Assembly (NCBI RefSeq): GCF_000011385.1 | Contig: NC_005125.1 | Location: 3,286,001 to 3,350,000 of the forward strand | DNA from: Gloeobacter violaceus PCC 7421 | Lineage (GTDB): Bacteria; Cyanobacteriota; Cyanobacteriia; Gloeobacterales; Gloeobacteraceae | Direction: 5' to 3' | DNA length: 64,000 nucleotides | In this document: one piece after another, positions 7,253-59,523 of the stretch | How the letters are laid out: each line of letters opens with the position of its first letter | How positions within the stretch are numbered: the stretch's first letter is position 1 | The notes under the pieces: generated by a model | Seen by the model: the letters and a program-made list of their open reading frames with translations, nothing else | What the model was told of the DNA's origin: nothing | The model's database searches: none | Position numbers and translations under genes: made by a program

Positions 7253-7423
7253 GGACGAACTCCCGCAATTCTACAGAGTTAAGAACGCCCCCATACGATA
7301 CCGCTCCTGAAGATGACCCGGCAGTCCCAGGGGGCGGCATTTTTCAACCCCGGACGGGCGAAGGGAGGGAATCGGCGTTTTAAATTGAAATGTTGGCCGA
7401 TCACCCACACCTGCACCTGCACC

Positions 7424-8515
7424 ATGCCGCTTCCCGCCGCCGTCCTCACCACCCCCCATAGCGGCTACCACTGGCCGGGTTCGCTGCTGTCGCCCCGCAA
7501 TCGCCGCTTCTTCGAAGGCTGGTACTACCGGGTGAGCCTTGCTGAGGAGGGCGAATCGTTCGCCTTTATGTACGCAATCGAAGACCCGGCCGGGGGAGCG
7601 CCGACCAGCGGCGGTTTTGCCCAGGTGCTCGGTCCTGAAGACGGCCGCACCTACCAACTCTTTGGGGGCGTGGAGGGCTTCTGGGCCACCCCCGACCGCC
7701 TTGCCCTCGGCCACCGGCAAGATCCGCCCGGACCGGCGGGGTATCTGGAGCCGGAGGATTTTGAAGCGAAAGTGCGCCGGGGCTACCAGGCCACCGACAG
7801 CCTCAACCAGGGCTGTATCGAGGACGAGACAGGAGAGATCACCCGCTGGTGCTACCGGCTCCGGCCGGTGCACGGTTGGGGAGCACCGGGGCGACCGGTG
7901 GCGACGATGGGCTGGCTGTCGTACCTGCCGGTGTTCGAACCCGGCTGGCAAATCTTGATGGCCGACGGCCTGGCGGAGGGCTGGATCGAATGGCGAGGAC
8001 GGCGCTATACTTTCACCGGCGCCCCCGCCTACGGCGAAAAAAACTGGGGCGGAGCCTTTCCCACCCAGTGGTTCTGGGTGCAGGCCAACGCCTTCGAGGG
8101 TTCCCCGGGCGCGGCGCTGGTGGCGGGGGGCGGACGGCGCGGGGTGCTGTGGTGGGAAGAATCGGTGGCGATGGTCGGCTTCTACTGGGCCGGGCGATTC
8201 TACCGGTTTACGGCCGGGCAGGAAAAGCTCACCTGTACCGTCACGCCCTGGGGCCACTGGCACATCGAAGCGCTCTCGGAGCGCCACCGCATCGAAGTCA
8301 GCGGCACCGTCGCCCCGGAGGGCGGCATCGAGCTGTTGGCACCGACGGCGAACGGCTCGCGCTTCGTGTGCCGCGACACCCTCAAGGGGGAGGTGCGGGT
8401 GCGCCTGGAGCGGCGCTGGGGCGACCGGGCAGTATTGTTCGACGGACGGACACCTCTGGGAGGGCTGGAGACCGGCGGCGGTCCGTGGGACGGTGAGTGG
8501 CGTATTTCTTGTTAG
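7424..8515 (+). CDS. Tocopherol cyclase (VTE1 / slr1737 type)
   Basis: A 363-residue protein matching plant VTE1 and cyanobacterial tocopherol cyclases. It begins with TPHSGYHWPG and RRFFEGWYYRVSL, followed by many tryptophan-rich segments (YGEKNWGGAFPTQWFWVQAN). The enzyme closes the chromanol ring of 2,3-dimethyl-6-phytyl-1,4-benzoquinol to give gamma-tocopherol. The ATG at 7424 gives the usual ~360 residues and puts the conserved start of the domain about 10 residues in; the frame stays open upstream to 7313 without family similarity. It is the first gene of a tocopherol operon, and the next gene starts just after, or overlaps, its stop. Confidence 0.9.
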   Translation: MPLPAAVLTTPHSGYHWPGSLLSPRNRRFFEGWYYRVSLAEEGESFAFMYAIEDPAGGAPTSGGFAQVLGPEDGRTYQLFGGVEGFWATPDRLALGHRQDPPGPAGYLEPEDFEAKVRRGYQATDSLNQGCIEDETGEITRWCYRLRPVHGWGAPGRPVATMGWLSYLPVFEPGWQILMADGLAEGWIEWRGRRYTFTGAPAYGEKNWGGAFPTQWFWVQANAFEGSPGAALVAGGGRRGVLWWEESVAMVGFYWAGRFYRFTAGQEKLTCTVTPWGHWHIEALSERHRIEVSGTVAPEGGIELLAPTANGSRFVCRDTLKGEVRVRLERRWGDRAVLFDGRTPLGGLETGGGPWDGEWRISC

Positions 8516-8526
8516 ATGAGGCGGCA

Positions 8527-9372
8527 ATGGGCGAGCGAACGGTTCTCAACGAAAATATCCGGCGGTTCTACGACGCGTCCTCCGGGTTGTGGGAGGAGGT
8601 CTGGGGCGAGCACATGCACCACGGCCACTGGGAAGTGGGGGAAGCGGACAAAGATCGCCGCGTCGCCCAGGTGGATTTGGTCGTCAGGCTCCTCGACTGG
8701 GCGGGGATCGACCGGGCCGAGTCGATCGTCGATGTCGGCTGCGGCATCGGCGGCAGCAGTCTGTTTCTGGCGGAGCGCTTCGGCGCCCGGGTGGAGGGGA
8801 TCACCCTCAGCCCCGTGCAGTGTAAGCGCGCCGCCGAGCGCGCCCGCGAGCACCATCTGGACGGGCGCGCGCACTTTCAGGTGGCCGACGCCCACCGGAT
8901 GCCCTTCGCCGACGGCCGGTTCGACCTGGTCTGGTCGCTCGAAAGCGGTGAGCACATGGCCGACAAGGCCCAATTTTTGCGCGAATGCCACCGGGTGCTC
9001 AGGCCCGGCGGCCGCTTCGTGTTTGTGACTTGGTGCTGTCGCCACGGCGCCTTGGACGCGCGGGATCAAAAATGGCTCGGGGCGATCTACCGGATCTACC
9101 ACCTGCCCTACATCCTCTCGATCGAGAGCTACACGCAGTTGCTTGGTGAGACGGGGTTCTCGGGCATTCGGACCACCGACTGGTCCGATCGGGTGGCCCG
9201 CTTCTGGTCGCTGGTCATCGATTCGGCCCTCGAACCGGCGGTGCTGTGGAAGGTGATCGCCCAGGGACCGACGGTAATCAAAGGCGCGCTCGCCATGCAG
9301 TTGATGCGGCGCAGCTACGCGCGGGGGCTGGTGCGCTTCGGCGTGTTCGCGGCCCAAAAGGCGGAGGGATAA
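8527..9372 (+). CDS. Gamma-tocopherol methyltransferase (VTE4 type)
   Basis: A 281-residue class I SAM methyltransferase. The N-terminus NENIRRFYDASSGLWEEVWG and the HMHHGHW segment are hallmarks of gamma-tocopherol C-methyltransferases (Synechocystis slr0089). SIVDVGCGIGGSS is SAM motif I and VWSLESGEHM is the later motif. It methylates gamma- to alpha-tocopherol. ATG 8527 lies 11 bp after the cyclase stop; an in-frame ATG at 8497 would overlap the cyclase and add ten residues. Its stop overlaps the next start (TAATG), so translation is probably coupled. A methylphytylbenzoquinol methyltransferase is the main alternative, but the N-terminal motif favours VTE4. Confidence 0.88.
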   Translation: MGERTVLNENIRRFYDASSGLWEEVWGEHMHHGHWEVGEADKDRRVAQVDLVVRLLDWAGIDRAESIVDVGCGIGGSSLFLAERFGARVEGITLSPVQCKRAAERAREHHLDGRAHFQVADAHRMPFADGRFDLVWSLESGEHMADKAQFLRECHRVLRPGGRFVFVTWCCRHGALDARDQKWLGAIYRIYHLPYILSIESYTQLLGETGFSGIRTTDWSDRVARFWSLVIDSALEPAVLWKVIAQGPTVIKGALAMQLMRRSYARGLVRFGVFAAQKAEG

Positions 9373-10406
9373 TGCTGCTGGGGTTCGCCTGGATGGAGTT
9401 GTTCGTCGAGTCGGCACAGGCGAGCGCCAATCGCCTCTGCGCCCAGATGGGCTTTACCCCGGTGGGCTGCTTCGAGGATTGTAATACTTTTAGTCTTGCG
9501 ATACGCAATGGCGGTGCGCTGCTGGTGGTGAGCGAGGCGCTTGGAGCGACCGGTCCGGTGCAGCGGTACCTCGATGGCCACCCCCAGGGGATCGCCGATG
9601 TCGCTTTTTGGACGGAAGCGTTTCCGGGTGGCCCCGGCGCTCTCCCCGGTCGCCTGCCCGCCACCGGACAAATCGTGGGGCCGGCGGGGATCACCCATAC
9701 GTTCGCGCCTCCCCAGCCGGGCGATCTGCCGCCGGGTTTTCTTCCCCTGCCGGGCGCCGCGCTGCGCCGCGAGCTGGCTGGGATCGACCACGTCGTGCTC
9801 AACCTCGGCACCGAAGCCTTCGAGCCTGCCATCCACTGGTACCGGCAGGTGCTTGGGCTCGAAGCGAGCCGCTACTTTGAAATTTCCACCCCCCACTCGG
9901 CCCTCAAAAGCTGGGTACTCACCGACTCTGCCCATCGCGTGCGCCTGCCGCTGAATGCCCCGCTGACTGCCAACTCCCAGGTGAGCGAATTTCTGGAGGC
10001 CAACGGTGGCCCGGGAGTGCAGCATATTGCCCTACGCACGACGAATATTGCCCACACGGTCGACCACCTGCGCACCCTGGGGGTGGAATTTCTCGACGCC
10101 CCGGCTACCTACTTCGAGCGCCTTGGAGATCGCGTCGATCTGGCCGGTCTGGACATGGAGACCTTGCGCCGATTGCACATCCTCGTCGACCAGGACGAAA
10201 GCGAAGGACGAATCTTGCAAATATTTACCCGACCGCTGTTCGCGGAGCCGACCTTGTTCTTCGAATTTATCGAGCGCCAGGGAACAGCCCTCGGCTTCGG
10301 CGAAGGTAACTTTCAGTCGCTTTTTGAAGCAATCGAACGGGAGCAGCAGTCGCGCGGCACCCTGGAGGCAGAGCGCAAACCCGCCTTCGTGCAGGACGCG
10401 CTATAG
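9372..10406 (+). CDS. hppD: 4-hydroxyphenylpyruvate dioxygenase
   Basis: A 344-residue protein with two vicinal-oxygen-chelate halves. The iron ligands are the His in IDHVVLNLG, the His in GVQHIALRT and the Glu in LFFEFIERQG. The closing GFGEGNFQSLFEAIEREQ is the HPPD C-terminal signature. It converts 4-hydroxyphenylpyruvate to homogentisate, the head group for tocopherol and plastoquinone in many phototrophs. The ATG at 9372 shares bases with the stop of the methyltransferase. About a dozen extra residues follow the usual C-terminus, where the reading frame runs into a VapC remnant in another frame. Confidence 0.92.
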   Translation: MLLGFAWMELFVESAQASANRLCAQMGFTPVGCFEDCNTFSLAIRNGGALLVVSEALGATGPVQRYLDGHPQGIADVAFWTEAFPGGPGALPGRLPATGQIVGPAGITHTFAPPQPGDLPPGFLPLPGAALRRELAGIDHVVLNLGTEAFEPAIHWYRQVLGLEASRYFEISTPHSALKSWVLTDSAHRVRLPLNAPLTANSQVSEFLEANGGPGVQHIALRTTNIAHTVDHLRTLGVEFLDAPATYFERLGDRVDLAGLDMETLRRLHILVDQDESEGRILQIFTRPLFAEPTLFFEFIERQGTALGFGEGNFQSLFEAIEREQQSRGTLEAERKPAFVQDAL

Positions 10407-10588
10407 AAATCTGGGGTAAGAGTGTCGCTGCCGCTACACAAGCTGAAATCACTGTGCCGACGGTCGACGGCTTGATCACCGCAACAGCCGCCCGCCACGG
10501 TCTGGCGGTTGCTACGCGCAATCTGCGCCACTTTCAGATGTTCGGAGCAAGGGTGGTAAACCCCTGGGAAGGACAGAAGATCCAGTAG
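10403..10588 (+). pseudogene. Remnant of a VapC-type PIN toxin (C-terminal part)
   Basis: A frame overlapping the end of hppD and running to the TAG at 10586-10588 reads IEIWGKSVAAATQAE, then VPTVDGLITATAARHGLAVATRN, then FGARVVNPWEG. This is the C-terminal third of VapC/FitB toxins, including the conserved Asp in VDGLI, the TRN motif and the NPW ending. No start codon, N-terminal PIN half or antitoxin gene is present upstream; hppD occupies that space. It appears to be a decayed toxin-antitoxin locus brought next to, or truncated by, the tocopherol operon. Upstream in the same frame there is a stop at 10325. Confidence 0.75.
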
Positions 10589-11353
10589 ATGCGGATAGCG
10601 CGGCGGCTCTGCTCACGTGGCGGTGCGATCGGGTTCTGCTATTCATAAGGTCTTGAAAACCGGCTCCGTCCGGTCTGCTGTGAACATGGCGATTTCTAGC
10701 GAGACAGGAGCCAAACGGTTTCCAGCTATGTTTGTGAATCCCACGTACTTGGAGTTATTTCTGCCGACAGATGCGATGGCCTGCGCAGGAGCCTAGATTA
10801 AAACTACTATCGACAATCACAAAAGTAGATTTCAATCAAACAAAAACGGATTTCAATCATCTTTGCTACCTGTTTGCCCTGGGAGTTCGGGGGCTAGAGT
10901 GTCGTGCGCGACGTATTGAACAGGATTAGACATTGAATCGGAGATATACCCTGAGCAAGATTTCCATCGGTTTTGCGGTATTTGGCCTGTTTCCGGCTCT
11001 CCACAATACGCCTTCGCTTAGCAATCAAATAGTCCTTTCTTGGGCAGTGAGGCAATACCTTCGGCAGCTCCAGCCCTGGTGCCGCACCGACCCGGACTCC
11101 CAGAACCGAGGCCGACAATCAAGAATGCGCAAGGTAGGATGCCCTGGCCCGAGAAGGGCGCAATCTGCCCTGTTGCAAAACCCAAAGTAAGGGAGGCCGC
11201 TGTCTGGATCCACGGCCTTGACCTGAGTAAAAAGTTTAAATAACTGGCTCCGCCACCGCTTGAGGTGGTAGATCCGTTCCGACAAGCAGATAGATCTTGC
11301 CATCTGGGCAACACCTTCAACGAAACACATTGAGATCACAAAGGAACTTGATT
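10589..11353. other. Long non-coding, AT-richer stretch
   Basis: No convincing gene is seen on either strand. Short open frames here lack ribosome-binding sites and protein-like composition. The stretch holds a pair of 11-bp direct repeats (10828-10859), a small inverted repeat (CCACC/GGTGG, 11253-11268) and a purine-rich ribosome-binding site (AAGGAAC) just before the gene at 11354. Base composition is visibly less GC-rich than the flanking core genes, which fits decayed accessory DNA. Confidence 0.6.
10828..10859. repeat. Two 11-bp direct repeats, 21 bp apart
   Basis: GATTTCAATCA occurs at 10828-10838 and again at 10849-10859. The start-to-start distance of 21 bp is two helical turns, so both copies face the same side of the DNA. 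A partial third copy (CAATCA) lies at 10814-10819. This could be a binding site for a regulator, or simply part of the degenerate intergenic DNA. Confidence 0.5.
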
Positions 11354-11731
11354 ATGTCTCACTTGAGCACTTTACCGACCAAATTGAATAACGTCCAACT
11401 TTTGATCGCGTCTTTGCAAGACCTGGGTGTGCAGGTCAAAATCGACGCCGAAGCCCGCGGTGGTTGTGGTCGAAATTTTCGTGCCGACGTGGTAGCCGTT
11501 CTTGCCGGTGAATACGATCTCGGTTGGGCTCTAAACGCCGAAGGCAATCTCGACCTGGTGGGAGATCTTCAGGGCGTAGCCCGCTACCACAATCCGACTG
11601 AATTCATCGATGCCGTCAACCAGAAGTATGCGCTAAAAAAAGCACTCCATCAGATTCAGACTTCCGGCTACACGGTGCTTGCTCAGCAAGTCGGTGTGCA
11701 CGGTACCCATCGCTTAAGTGTCGGCCGTTGA
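11354..11731 (+). CDS. DUF1257 / Ycf35-like protein
   Basis: A 125-residue protein starting MSHLSTLPTKLNNVQLLIAS, followed by LQDLGVQVKID. This matches the Ycf35 (DUF1257) family of plastids and cyanobacteria, whose members start MSHF-x-x-I-K-T. The family's function is unknown. In other cyanobacteria it often sits beside a small DUF2997 protein and an AAA+ ATPase; neither is seen here. Instead it is followed by three small unknown genes on the same strand. A ribosome-binding site (AAGGAAC) lies 6-7 bp before the ATG. Confidence 0.8.
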   Translation: MSHLSTLPTKLNNVQLLIASLQDLGVQVKIDAEARGGCGRNFRADVVAVLAGEYDLGWALNAEGNLDLVGDLQGVARYHNPTEFIDAVNQKYALKKALHQIQTSGYTVLAQQVGVHGTHRLSVGR

Positions 11732-11756
11732 TCTGTCATTTGGGAGGGAATTATTT

Positions 11757-12032
11757 ATGGACGGACAAATGTGTTGGTTGAGGGTCAGCAATTCGCCCGA
11801 TCCCAGAAAAATCCTTCATCTGCGCATGCTTCCAAGCCAGCCCTGGACACCCTACACAGAGTGGCAACACTTGATGGTTCCCGACTATCGCGAACCGGGG
11901 GGTGCCAAAGGGTGGGCGACTTATCAAAAGCTTATCCGGGTGGGTTGGAAAGTCGAAAAGAGCACAGAAAACTCTCCCAGAGAACATCTTGTCAGGAGCA
12001 ATCCATCCTTTTCGATTGCCGATGGGCGCTAA
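11757..12032 (+). CDS. Unknown 91-residue protein
   Basis: I do not recognise this family. The protein begins MDGQMCWLRVSNSPDPRK, has no membrane segment or signal peptide and is rich in Trp and Pro. The ATG at 11757 follows a strong ribosome-binding site (GGGAGGGA), which supports real translation; an upstream start would overlap the Ycf35-like gene. It lies 25 bp after that gene, so the two are probably co-transcribed. Confidence 0.6.
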   Translation: MDGQMCWLRVSNSPDPRKILHLRMLPSQPWTPYTEWQHLMVPDYREPGGAKGWATYQKLIRVGWKVEKSTENSPREHLVRSNPSFSIADGR

Positions 12033-12062
12033 CAATCAAAAAAGTGGGTATGGAGCCTAACG

Positions 12063-12320
12063 ATGAAGGACAATGAGTCGCTTGAAGCGACACTTTTTCT
12101 CAACACATTGCAAAAGGGAGTCTGGGCGCTAGGGATCGTCGGGTGGTGCTTTGGGCTATGCGAAAGGACAACCGTCGCGCTGTCCGATGGTTATCTTTCG
12201 GCAATCGACTTGGTCCTCCTATTTACGGCTTGCTTTTTCTTTGTTTGCTGGTTGTTGTTGAAACCCTCAAAAGCAAACCCAAAGGGCGCGATCCAGCATT
12301 CAAGTAGCTTGCTTGAATAG
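12063..12320 (+). CDS. Unknown 85-residue membrane protein
   Basis: Two hydrophobic helices are visible: roughly residues 18-36 (GVWALGIVGWCFGLC) and 45-67 (LVLLFTACFFFVCWLLL). They are joined by a short loop and followed by a lysine-containing tail. No family is recognised. It lies 30 bp after the 91-residue gene and 13 bp before the next, in the small-gene cluster that starts with the Ycf35-like gene. Confidence 0.6.
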   Translation: MKDNESLEATLFLNTLQKGVWALGIVGWCFGLCERTTVALSDGYLSAIDLVLLFTACFFFVCWLLLKPSKANPKGAIQHSSSLLE

Positions 12321-12333
12321 TTGAGGTGAATCG

Positions 12334-12549
12334 ATGACGGAAAATTCGGCTTTAATACCTCCCAGGTATCAGGAAAATCAGTCCGTCTCCTTCCTTGGAG
12401 GAGCAGGACGAATTAGAGATTGCCACTTCATCAAAGGCACCTGGGACTATATTGTCGAAATGGAATTCGGCCAGGCCGACCGGGGCCGTCTGGGCGATGA
12501 AACTGCGGTCCTCTTACCCGAGAGCGAATTGGAGCCTCGGATCTGCTGA
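12334..12549 (+). CDS. Unknown 71-residue soluble protein
   Basis: The protein reads MTENSALIPPRYQENQSVSF and continues with a compact pattern (GGAGRIRDCHFIKGTWDYIVEM, then ETAVLLPESEL). This looks like a small beta-barrel of the SH3/KOW kind: a glycine turn, a basic strand and a W-Y-x-V-E strand. That is inference from pattern only. It is the last gene of the Ycf35-like small-gene cluster and is preceded by TTGAGGTGA as ribosome-binding site. Confidence 0.6.
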   Translation: MTENSALIPPRYQENQSVSFLGGAGRIRDCHFIKGTWDYIVEMEFGQADRGRLGDETAVLLPESELEPRIC

Positions 12550-12666
12550 AGCGAGTACTGCAAAGCGTCCAATGGTCCGGCTTGCTTTGGGCTGTTCGGC
12601 ATCCAACTCGTCCGCACCCTGACAGGCTTTGTGCAAGTCGCCAGGGTGCGTGGAGCGTGCCTCCGC

Positions 12667-13029
12667 TCAACGCATCCGACCGCTCTCTTCTTTGGAGGAA
12701 GTGAGTGGCACGCGGGGTTCGCAGGCGTTGAAAATCACTTCTGCCTTGCTCAATCTTTCGAGCGTTTCGCGCGCGTCGATGAGGCGCTTGAGGAGCACCT
12801 GGGCAATGCCCTGGACGGCGGGGTTGGTGGTTTGCTCGGTGCGCTTCACTTCGACCATCACCACCGCTTCTTCAGTCCGGTAGAGCCAGAAAGTCTCTCC
12901 CTGCTCGATGATCCCCAGGTTGATGCGCTCAAGCTGGGGTTTGCGCCGCTGCACCAGATCATCCCAAACCCCTGCGCTATCCCACACGCGGCCAACTCTC
13001 CACCCTTCAGCCAAAAAAAAGTACTTCAT
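12667..13029 (-). CDS. Unknown 120-residue protein
   Basis: Not assigned to a family. It starts MKYFFLAEGWRVGRVWDSAG and has the middle FWLYRTEEAVVMVEVKRTEQ, a two-strand beta pattern, followed by a long helix (VQGIAQVLLKRLIDARETLERL). The ATG at 13029 is preferred over a TTG two codons earlier. It is on the opposite strand to the small-gene cluster and upstream, on the same strand, of the Ctp-argF operon end, but is separated from it by its own promoter region. Confidence 0.55.
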   Translation of the reverse strand: MKYFFLAEGWRVGRVWDSAGVWDDLVQRRKPQLERINLGIIEQGETFWLYRTEEAVVMVEVKRTEQTTNPAVQGIAQVLLKRLIDARETLERLSKAEVIFNACEPRVPLTSSKEESGRMR

Positions 13030-13104
13030 AGACAAACAATCCGATGAATCTTGCGTGGCATTGCATCTATGCCCAACTTTACATGGGTCGCCGCGAAAAA
13101 TCCG

Positions 13105-57642: not shown

Positions 57643-59523
57643 TTAAGGGGCACTTTCCGCGCACAGTGCCGTCCGCGGCTGCGCAAGCGACACCGCCCGC
57701 TCCAACAGCGCGCGCAACTGCGGGCCCTCGAGCACCTCCTGCACCAGCAACAGCCGGGCCATCTCCTCCAAGAGCGGCCCGTTGGCCCGCAACAGGCCGA
57801 GGGCGTGGGCGTAGGCGCTTTCGAGCACAGCGCGCACTTCGCGATCGATTTGCTCGGCGACCGCTTCGCTCACAGGGCGCCGCAGCGCCGTCCCGCCCAA
57901 AAATTCCGACTGCGGTTTTTCAAAGGCGACCGGACCGAGGTCCGCACCCATGCCGTAGAGGGTGATCATCCGCTGCGCCAGATCGGTGGCCTGCTGCAAG
58001 TCGTCCGCGGCTCCGGTCGAAAGTTCGCCAAAGATAATATGCTCCGCCGCCCGGCCGCCCATCAGCACCGCCAGCCGCCCGCGCATCTCGGGCTCGCTCA
58101 TCAAGAAGCGATCCTCCTCCGGCAGTTGCAGCGTGTAGCCGAGGGCAGCCATCCCCCGGGGGACGATCGAGATTTTCTCGACCCGGCCGGTGCAGGGCAC
58201 CAGGCGGGCGACGATCGCGTGTCCGGACTCGTGGTGGGCGACCGTGGCGCGCTCCTCGTCCCCCAGCACGCGCGAGCGCTTCTCCAGGCCCGCCACCACC
58301 CGCTCGAGCGCCTCGGCCAGATCAGCCATGGTCACGGCCGCTTTGCCCTGGCGGGCCGCGAGCAACGCCGCCTCGTTGATCAAATTGGCCAGGTCCGCCC
58401 CGGCAAATCCGGCGGTCCGACCCGCCATCGCCACCAGATCGACATCGGGGGCCAGTTTCACCGGTCGGGCGTGCACCTGCAAAATGGCGAGGCGGCCGGT
58501 TTTATCGGGCCGATCCACCAGCACCCGCCGATCGAAGCGCCCCGGCCTGAGCAACGCCGGATCGAGGCTCTCCGGCCGGTTGGTGGCCGCCAGCAAGATA
58601 ACGCCGGTGTTGGGGGCAAAGCCGTCCATCTCGGCCAATAGCTGGTTGAGGGTCTGCTCGCGCTCGTCGTTGCCCCCGGCCATGGGCGAGCCGACCCGCG
58701 ACTTGCCGATGGCATCCAGTTCGTCGATGAAGATGATACACGGAGCCTGCTGCTTGGCCTGCTCGAACAGGTCGCGCACCCGCGCCGCCCCGACACCGAC
58801 GAACAGTTCGACAAATTCGGATCCCGAAATCGAAAAGAACGGCACCCCCGCCTCACCGGCGACGGCCTTGGCCAGCAGCGTCTTGCCGGTGCCGGGGGGA
58901 CCGACCAACAGCACCCCCTTGGGAATCTTGGCACCGATGCGGGTGTAGCGCTCGGGCTGCTTGAGAAACTGGACAATCTCCTGCAGTTCGCCCTTGGCCT
59001 CGTCGACGCCGGCCACATCGCCGAAGGCGACTCCGGTCGAACCCTGGGCGTAGATGCGTGCCCGCGAACGGCTCATCGTGAGTGTCTGCGGCCCCTGCGC
59101 TCCACCTCGGCCCAATAGCCACCAGAAACCCAACACCGCCAGAGGCAGCATCAACCACCCAAGCACCCCCGGCAGCCAGTCAGCACCGCGGGAAGGCGCC
59201 GCCGTATATTCGACTTTGTGTCGGCGCAGAAGCCCGGCCAGTTGCGGATCGGTGGGCAGGGGCACCGTCCGGTGGCGTTTTTTCTCGCCCGCCAGTTCGT
59301 ATTCGATGCGGTCGCCCGCCACCAGCGCGCGGGCAACCTTGCCCTGCTCGAGTTGTTCGATAAACCGGCTGTAGGGTTCGCTCGGGCCGGATGCGGACAT
59401 CAACACCGCGGGCAACACCAGCAGGTTCACCGCCACCAGCACCAGCACCAGCACGGCAATGTAGTCCCAGCCCCGTCCGGATTTGGGGGTGTTCGTCCGC
59501 TCGCCGCCGGATTGTTCGCCCAT
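57643..59523 (-). CDS. ftsH: ATP-dependent zinc metalloprotease FtsH
   Basis: A 626-residue membrane AAA+ protease. Two TM helices lie near the N-terminus ([20 protein letters not shown] and [16 protein letters not shown]) with a short periplasmic domain. The AAA domain has Walker [17 protein letters not shown], Walker [13 protein letters not shown] and second region of homology [20 protein letters not shown]. The zinc motif is [12 protein letters not shown]. It degrades membrane and some soluble proteins; in cyanobacteria FtsH paralogues remove damaged D1. Confidence 0.96.

Follow-up and report, generated by a model that had tools for sequence, protein, structure and literature searches.

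What does a Ycf35-like (DUF1257) gene do when it stands beside three small genes rather than beside the partners usually named for its family? The question was raised by an initial annotation of the window, i.e., the whole stretch of 64,000 nucleotides analysed here (bases 3286001–3350000 of the single-contig genome of Gloeobacter violaceus PCC 7421, 4,659,019 bases), in which a DUF1257/Ycf35 gene followed by genes of 91, 85, and 71 residues was read as a possible variant of an uncharacterised cyanobacterial system.

The four genes and the extra stretch that holds them

The four genes lie on the plus strand, all start with ATG, and are separated by gaps of 25, 30, and 13 bp. They encode P0001 (11354–11731; 125 aa, DUF1257 family), P0002 (11757–12032; 91 aa, unnamed cyanobacterial family), P0003 (12063–12320; 85 aa, small membrane protein), and P0004 (12334–12549; 71 aa, unnamed family with a predicted SH3-like small barrel). 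The best Shine-Dalgarno sequences were, in gene order, AAGGA, GGAGG, GGAG, and GAGGTGA at spacings of 8, 9, 7, and 4, and the gene order, good ribosome-binding sites, and little spacing described at the outset were thereby borne out (gaps of 13–30 bp). Dinucleotide shuffling of the stretch also produced a chain of at least four close ORFs in 4 of 300 cases, and by itself the chain is weak evidence for genes. That the small genes at 11757–12549 are real was concluded from the relatives which all three have in other cyanobacteria: at E ≤ 0.01, matches were found in 51 (P0002), 30 (P0003), and 10 (P0004) of 292 genomes, each count taking in the strain's genome itself and a small number of weak matches, and a scan of a collection of 84,980 species confirmed 85 relatives of P0004, so that small genes without homologues anywhere are ruled out. 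When invariant columns were counted in alignments of the relatives alone (window protein excluded), 9 of 9 were kept in P0002 (30 relatives), 12 of 12 in P0003 (19 relatives), and 15 of 16 in P0004 (19 relatives). Searches of these three proteins against Pfam, NCBIfam, PHROGs, and PADLOC gave no credible match (best E 0.073). As judged from sequence, the cassette is a DUF1257 paralogue joined by three undescribed, conserved small families in an operon-like arrangement. Promoter and terminator scans yielded no more sites than shuffles did. A known anti-phage defence system is unsupported, with no PADLOC model matched by any of the four proteins up to E 1; absence from that library in itself excludes nothing. 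An RNA element was likewise rejected (Rfam models matched nothing in 10400–12800 up to E 1).

These genes fill a strain-specific stretch of about 2.04 kb (approximate borders 10672–12714) that is missing at the same locus in two genomes of the same genus, G292 and G294. Collinearity with both stops at about 10594–10671 and restarts at about 12714–12724, and just 62 and 11 bp separate the matching blocks in these genomes. Identity to them is 92–96% up to about 10406 and about 80% over the last 200 bases on the left side, and 93–95% on the right side. The area is AT-richer, as had been noted, and foreign in composition, with 51.7% GC in the stretch compared with 62.6% in the whole window, and third-position GC is 0.55–0.59 in the four genes versus 0.745–0.86 in three upstream genes. 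G292 and G294 have the same empty junction and are 96.8% (right) and 91.9% (left) identical to each other, so that one deletion in their common ancestor may have emptied the locus. A gain of the stretch is the simpler reading, as none of the 8 further genomes examined from the genus, family, and order (several of them 93–95% complete) has P0004, and the extra Ycf35-paralogue cassette was probably acquired laterally. The 10672–12714 stretch is not mentioned in the accessible sections of a study that treats transferred genes in Gloeobacter relatives (PMC13237429).

On the left, the stretch is flanked by the 3′-end remnant of a VapC-like (PIN toxin) gene (10413–10588, plus strand), which was recognised in alignments, the VapC and antitoxin names being assigned by eye; the gene is longer in G294 (L067), with an antitoxin-like gene ahead of it. 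On the right, a convergent gene (12667–13035, minus strand; from the ORF list and alignments) is common to G292, G294, and G293, and its last ~48 bases lie inside the extra stretch. Further left, at 7313–10406, three plus-strand genes were assigned by Pfam to the tocopherol cyclase (5.5e-136), methyltransferase, and glyoxalase/dioxygenase families, and this trio reads by eye as a tocopherol pathway run. Inspection of the ORFs by eye revealed no gene for an integrase, a transposase, or a phage structural protein, and a search of 10550–12800 for a pair of inverted repeats was negative. Two candidate explanations were discarded, a repeated genomic element (10600–11360 is single-copy in the genome) and a close relative on a plasmid (plasmid searches gave no match at the DNA level).

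A divergent DUF1257 paralogue outside the three usual contexts

P0001 matched PF06868 at 2.1e-24 (86.2 bits against a curated cut-off of 22.2; profile positions 1–102 of 103) and is hence a member of the family. Its search returned matches in 141 of the 292 genomes of the phylum, and the own genome has five DUF1257 genes, one of them in the window. Among the loci read, cyanobacterial DUF1257 genes stand in three contexts, namely DUF2997–DUF1257–ferredoxin, AAA+–DUF1257 without DUF2997, and AAA+–DUF1257–DUF2997, and a few copies are solitary (e.g., L088, L090, and L123). An AAA+ gene lies directly upstream of a DUF1257 gene without DUF2997 in 10 of 10 loci (L078–L087) and in further relatives. 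The own genome has each context once (L001, L003, and L002, in the order given above; DUF2997, ferredoxin, and AAA domains confirmed by Pfam), and the AAA+ ATPase of the L003-type pair is presumably Ycf46-like. DUF2997 and an AAA+ ATPase, which had been named as the usual partners, do both occur with DUF1257, but this description needs refining into three separate contexts.

P0001 is 51% identical to the DUF1257 protein of L003, compared with 84–93% for those of L078–L087. In the tree, it fell within that part of the AAA+-partnered clade which consists of its own order (modest support, 93/84), beside a solitary DUF1257 of G299 (weak support, 89/88) and on a long branch (0.74). Where the AAA+-partnered type shows 95% conservation or more (77 positions), P0001 agrees with it at 52, and 17 of the 19 positions common to all three types are retained. 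By tree and residue comparison, P0001 is thus classed as a divergent yet intact paralogue of the AAA+-partnered DUF1257. No AAA+ gene lies directly upstream of it, between 10406 and 11354, and the sole AAA+ match that the window contains lies ~46 kb off (58294–59001, 32–36% identical). A tblastn search of the window with two DUF2997 queries gave no match, and P0002–P0004 had no DUF2997 or ferredoxin family match in profile searches; the small genes do differ from the DUF2997/AAA+ partners, as had been proposed. A replacement of the usual partners was rejected, with all three ordinary contexts kept in the genome; since the AAA+–DUF1257 pair is still present elsewhere, the P0001 locus is read as an extra cassette instead.

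With the DUF2997–ycf35–fed7 cluster (“cluster g” in the accessible part of a review of Synechocystis ferredoxins, PMC4284462), the locus shares the DUF1257 family but neither the DUF2997 nor the ferredoxin gene, and the genome has that cluster at L001. To the AAA+–DUF1257 pair it is linked through P0001 as a divergent relative of the DUF1257 protein, but it differs by the long branch and by the missing AAA+ neighbour, and the ordinary pair remains at L003. At L003 itself (1291–1330), the AAA+ gene seems to end in residues that resemble the start of DUF2997 (VAEYQRMEF), which may be the vestige of a DUF2997 gene since lost. A separate DUF1257 paralogue with a long C-terminal extension occurs in the own genome (L005, 1438–2082) and in G294 (L124, 1180–1812), and no usual partner was recognised in the short loci read around it.

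According to the portions of the sources available, Ycf35/DUF1257 is kept in algal plastids (PMC5940233), expression of Synechocystis ycf35 is SigD-dependent under standard, high-temperature, and high-light conditions (PMC8875361), and Ycf35 protein is up under copper/iron deduction (PMC8141849). Ycf35, DUF1257, DUF2997, and Ycf46 receive passing mentions only in the accessible text of the literature found, which gives no function of Ycf35/DUF1257, and nothing to the point was found there on a stress cluster of these genes. Sequence searches of solved structures with P0001, the P0002 and P0004 profiles, and a ~310-aa protein described below returned nothing credible.

The small families and their neighbours in other genomes

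P0002 belongs to a family with the consensus M-CWL...KILHLR...PW.PY...SKGWATYQKL...GW, and a second copy is encoded elsewhere in the own genome. Its structural model (pLDDT 74.2) had no fold match at E ≤ 0.001 (best E 0.38). Relatives of P0002 occur on nine Nodularia phage records, several of which are duplicates of one phage, and on two large viral contigs of one metagenome (L313 and L314, 5001–5421; IMG/VR 3300042503_002860 and _001836), where the P0002-family gene overlaps nblA by about 20 bases. Viral scans gave no phage or viral match for P0003 and P0004. Prochlorococcus phage P-SSM2 (L311, 4802–5710) carries a DUF2997–DUF1257–DUF6561 run, i.e., the ordinary DUF2997–DUF1257 pair is also phage-borne, and P0001 is 32–34% identical to the DUF1257 of this phage.

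A second P0003 copy, too, is found elsewhere in the own genome. P0003 had been described as a two-helix membrane protein; Kyte-Doolittle hydropathy predicts one clear membrane segment at about residues 42–70, and the first hydrophobic stretch is short, so that the second helix is plausible only. The P0003 domain also forms the N-terminal part of ~310-aa proteins (~270–330 aa; L168 2018–3019, L183 7149–8117, L187 8346–9164), which lie near a small CxxC membrane protein and for which the L168 member, when tested, had no Pfam match and no solved relative. A member of this family stands next to DUF1257 in L168 and, without the P0003 part, in L187; in the window, by contrast, the P0003 domain is a stand-alone gene.

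The P0004 model (pLDDT 77.6) is a small barrel, the strand order of which fits a five-strand SH3-like barrel. The best Foldseek match was the MRG15 chromo domain (E 0.0092), and VIA gave Z 8.0 (rmsd 2.2, 58 residues aligned; scores in this range are common). Among the folds matched were also a Lon specificity factor (5ycq; Z 7.2, rmsd 2.2, 55 aligned) and NdhS (6khi_S; Z 7.3, rmsd 1.7, 52 aligned). The matches are generic, and the last two, as ties in a common fold, are not taken as evidence.

Neighbours were counted at E ≤ 1e-5 in up to 6 kb around 80 P0004 loci, which were kept from the 85 confirmed relatives (5 left out). P0002-family genes were found in 8 of these, P0003-family genes in 7, the ~310-aa family in 7, and DUF1257 in 2, with at least one of them in 14 of the 80. 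The 8 loci with P0002 come from several genera and compare with 0.1–0.4 expected (assuming 1–3 copies per 6.5-Mb genome), for which the Poisson probability is at most about 1e-8, a figure that makes the excess look too strong, as some loci are related (e.g., L140 and L144). For DUF1257, the 2 of 80 compare with 0.39 expected (three copies per genome), and the two genes are sisters in the tree. All four families are present in L168 (Leptolyngbya sp. FACHB-321), where P0003 is represented by the N-terminal part of the 310-aa protein, a weak match (E 1e-4), and the P0002 copy seems to be broken; in L187 (FACHB-471) the order is P0004, fatty-acid desaturase, NblA, DUF1257, and a 310-aa family protein. 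The P0002, P0003, and P0004 families are found together in L183 (Rhizonema), L202 (FACHB-63), and L135 (FACHB-502), with P0003 as a part of the 310-aa protein in L183 and L135. P0003 directly precedes P0004 on a Calothrix plasmid, in Plectonema, and in Rivularia; P0003 and P0002 lie side by side in G185 and G289, and G296, from another genus of the family, has P0002 followed by P0003 as in the window.

None of the other three families was found within ~6 kb in 40 P0002-centred and 40 P0003-centred loci, which were drawn from 60 and 48 matches, respectively, the rest being left out or counted apart (e.g., L070–L072, L076, and the G185/G289 pairs). The same held for 9 P0004 loci of the 292-genome draw within 1.5 kb, and for 20 DUF1257 control loci (160 kb, a weak control). 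Most copies of the P0002 and P0003 families hence stand alone; the small families are linked to each other far more often than chance would allow, though only in a minority of loci, and their tie to DUF1257 is near chance and only suggestive. The proposal of a variant of an uncharacterised system held in part: homologues of the small genes neighbour each other in some loci, and DUF1257 in 2 of 80, but the four-gene order is not conserved and was found in exact form in no other locus read.

Other neighbours in P0004 loci were genes for a CheB-type methylesterase, NACHT NTPases, a fatty-acid desaturase, DUF1830, a carotenoid-synthesis protein, FtsH (L202), HLIP (4 of 80, phmmer), and NblA (2 of 80, L187 and L132). 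Measured against a rate that we guessed for such genomes, the NblA and HLIP counts are only mildly higher. NblA directly precedes DUF1257 in L187, and neither NblA nor HLIP was found in the 40 P0002 and 40 P0003 loci or in the 20 DUF1257 control loci. In the NblA-bearing loci, NblA thus lies near family genes of DUF1257 and P0004 (L187), of P0004 (L132), or of P0002 (viral L313 and L314), whereas no nblA match was found anywhere in the window. With low confidence, we favour a function in which the photosynthetic apparatus is acclimated or turned over, in view of the NblA, HLIP, FtsH, and desaturase neighbours, the viral overlap with nblA, the SigD and copper/iron response of ycf35, and the adjoining tocopherol cyclase gene.

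Possible roles of the cassette

Tentatively, we infer that the stretch was gained and that the cassette is an accessory module by which the photosynthetic apparatus (subunits of the phycobilisome or of a photosystem) is adjusted or turned over under stress. In such a module, P0003 would hold a complex at the membrane, P0004 (with its predicted SH3-like barrel) and P0002 would serve as binding or adaptor subunits, and P0001 would take the place of the housekeeping DUF1257 subunit or rival it, with the AAA+ ATPase encoded elsewhere in the genome perhaps still acting in trans as its motor. A reasonable possibility, on the other hand, is that the stretch merely travelled as a passenger, i.e., that its genes have separate functions, were neighbours in a donor, and arrived in one transfer, with cooperation at most between P0002 and P0003 or between P0003 and P0004 and with the DUF1257 copy incidental. 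The 40 P0002 and 40 P0003 loci of other genomes in which no second member was seen fit such a transfer, as do the exact order being found here only, the DUF1257 association being confined to this locus and two sister genes, and the low overall and third-position GC, which suits a transferred block; the 9 P0004 loci without the other families slightly raise its odds and slightly lower those of a module. The tight same-strand spacing with ribosome-binding sites speaks against it, as do the 8 of 80 P0004 loci, from several genera, with P0002 within 6 kb where 0.1–0.4 were expected, and, beyond Gloeobacter, the loci L168 and L187, where DUF1257 and P0004 come together with the 310-aa family of P0003 type.

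Two further accounts concern where P0001 works and where the stretch came from. P0001 could be an alternative subunit for the AAA+ ATPase of the L003 locus, with the small genes encoding regulated adaptors and photosynthesis not specifically involved. Its place with the AAA+-partnered type (93/84, modest), the conserved positions that it keeps (52 of 77 and 17 of 19), and the AAA+ gene directly upstream in all ten loci L078–L087 are consistent with such a subunit, which we nevertheless regard as unlikely: P0001 is just 51% identical to its own paralogue, where 84–93% is seen for the DUF1257s of L078–L087, and with 25 of the 77 conserved positions changed, the interface may have been lost. That the stretch is a phage or plasmid remnant appears improbable. 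The presence of P0002 relatives in Nodularia phages and on large viral contigs, P0003–P0004 on the Calothrix plasmid, DUF1257 on P-SSM2, and the decayed VapC-like gene at the flank point in this direction; opposed to them are the want of an integrase, transposase, or phage structural gene by eye, of an inverted repeat pair, and of a plasmid DNA match, the lack of phage or viral matches for P0003 and P0004, and the 32–34% identity of P0001 to the phage DUF1257. Returning to the accessory module, its most far-reaching form is speculative and doubtful: an AAA+-less Ycf35 module, transferable, in which a DUF1257 paralogue and three undescribed small families would steer phycobilisome or photosystem turnover, and parts of which would have been captured by cyanophages beside nblA as a means of seizing control of that turnover.

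Many cyanobacteria have Ycf35/DUF1257, and algal plastids have kept it, yet it is without a function in the literature found, as far as the accessible parts of these sources go. Three conserved small families beside a Ycf35 paralogue offer concrete handles on DUF1257 function, and the viral P0002 copy that overlaps nblA is a hint that the P0002 family may touch phycobilisome handling.
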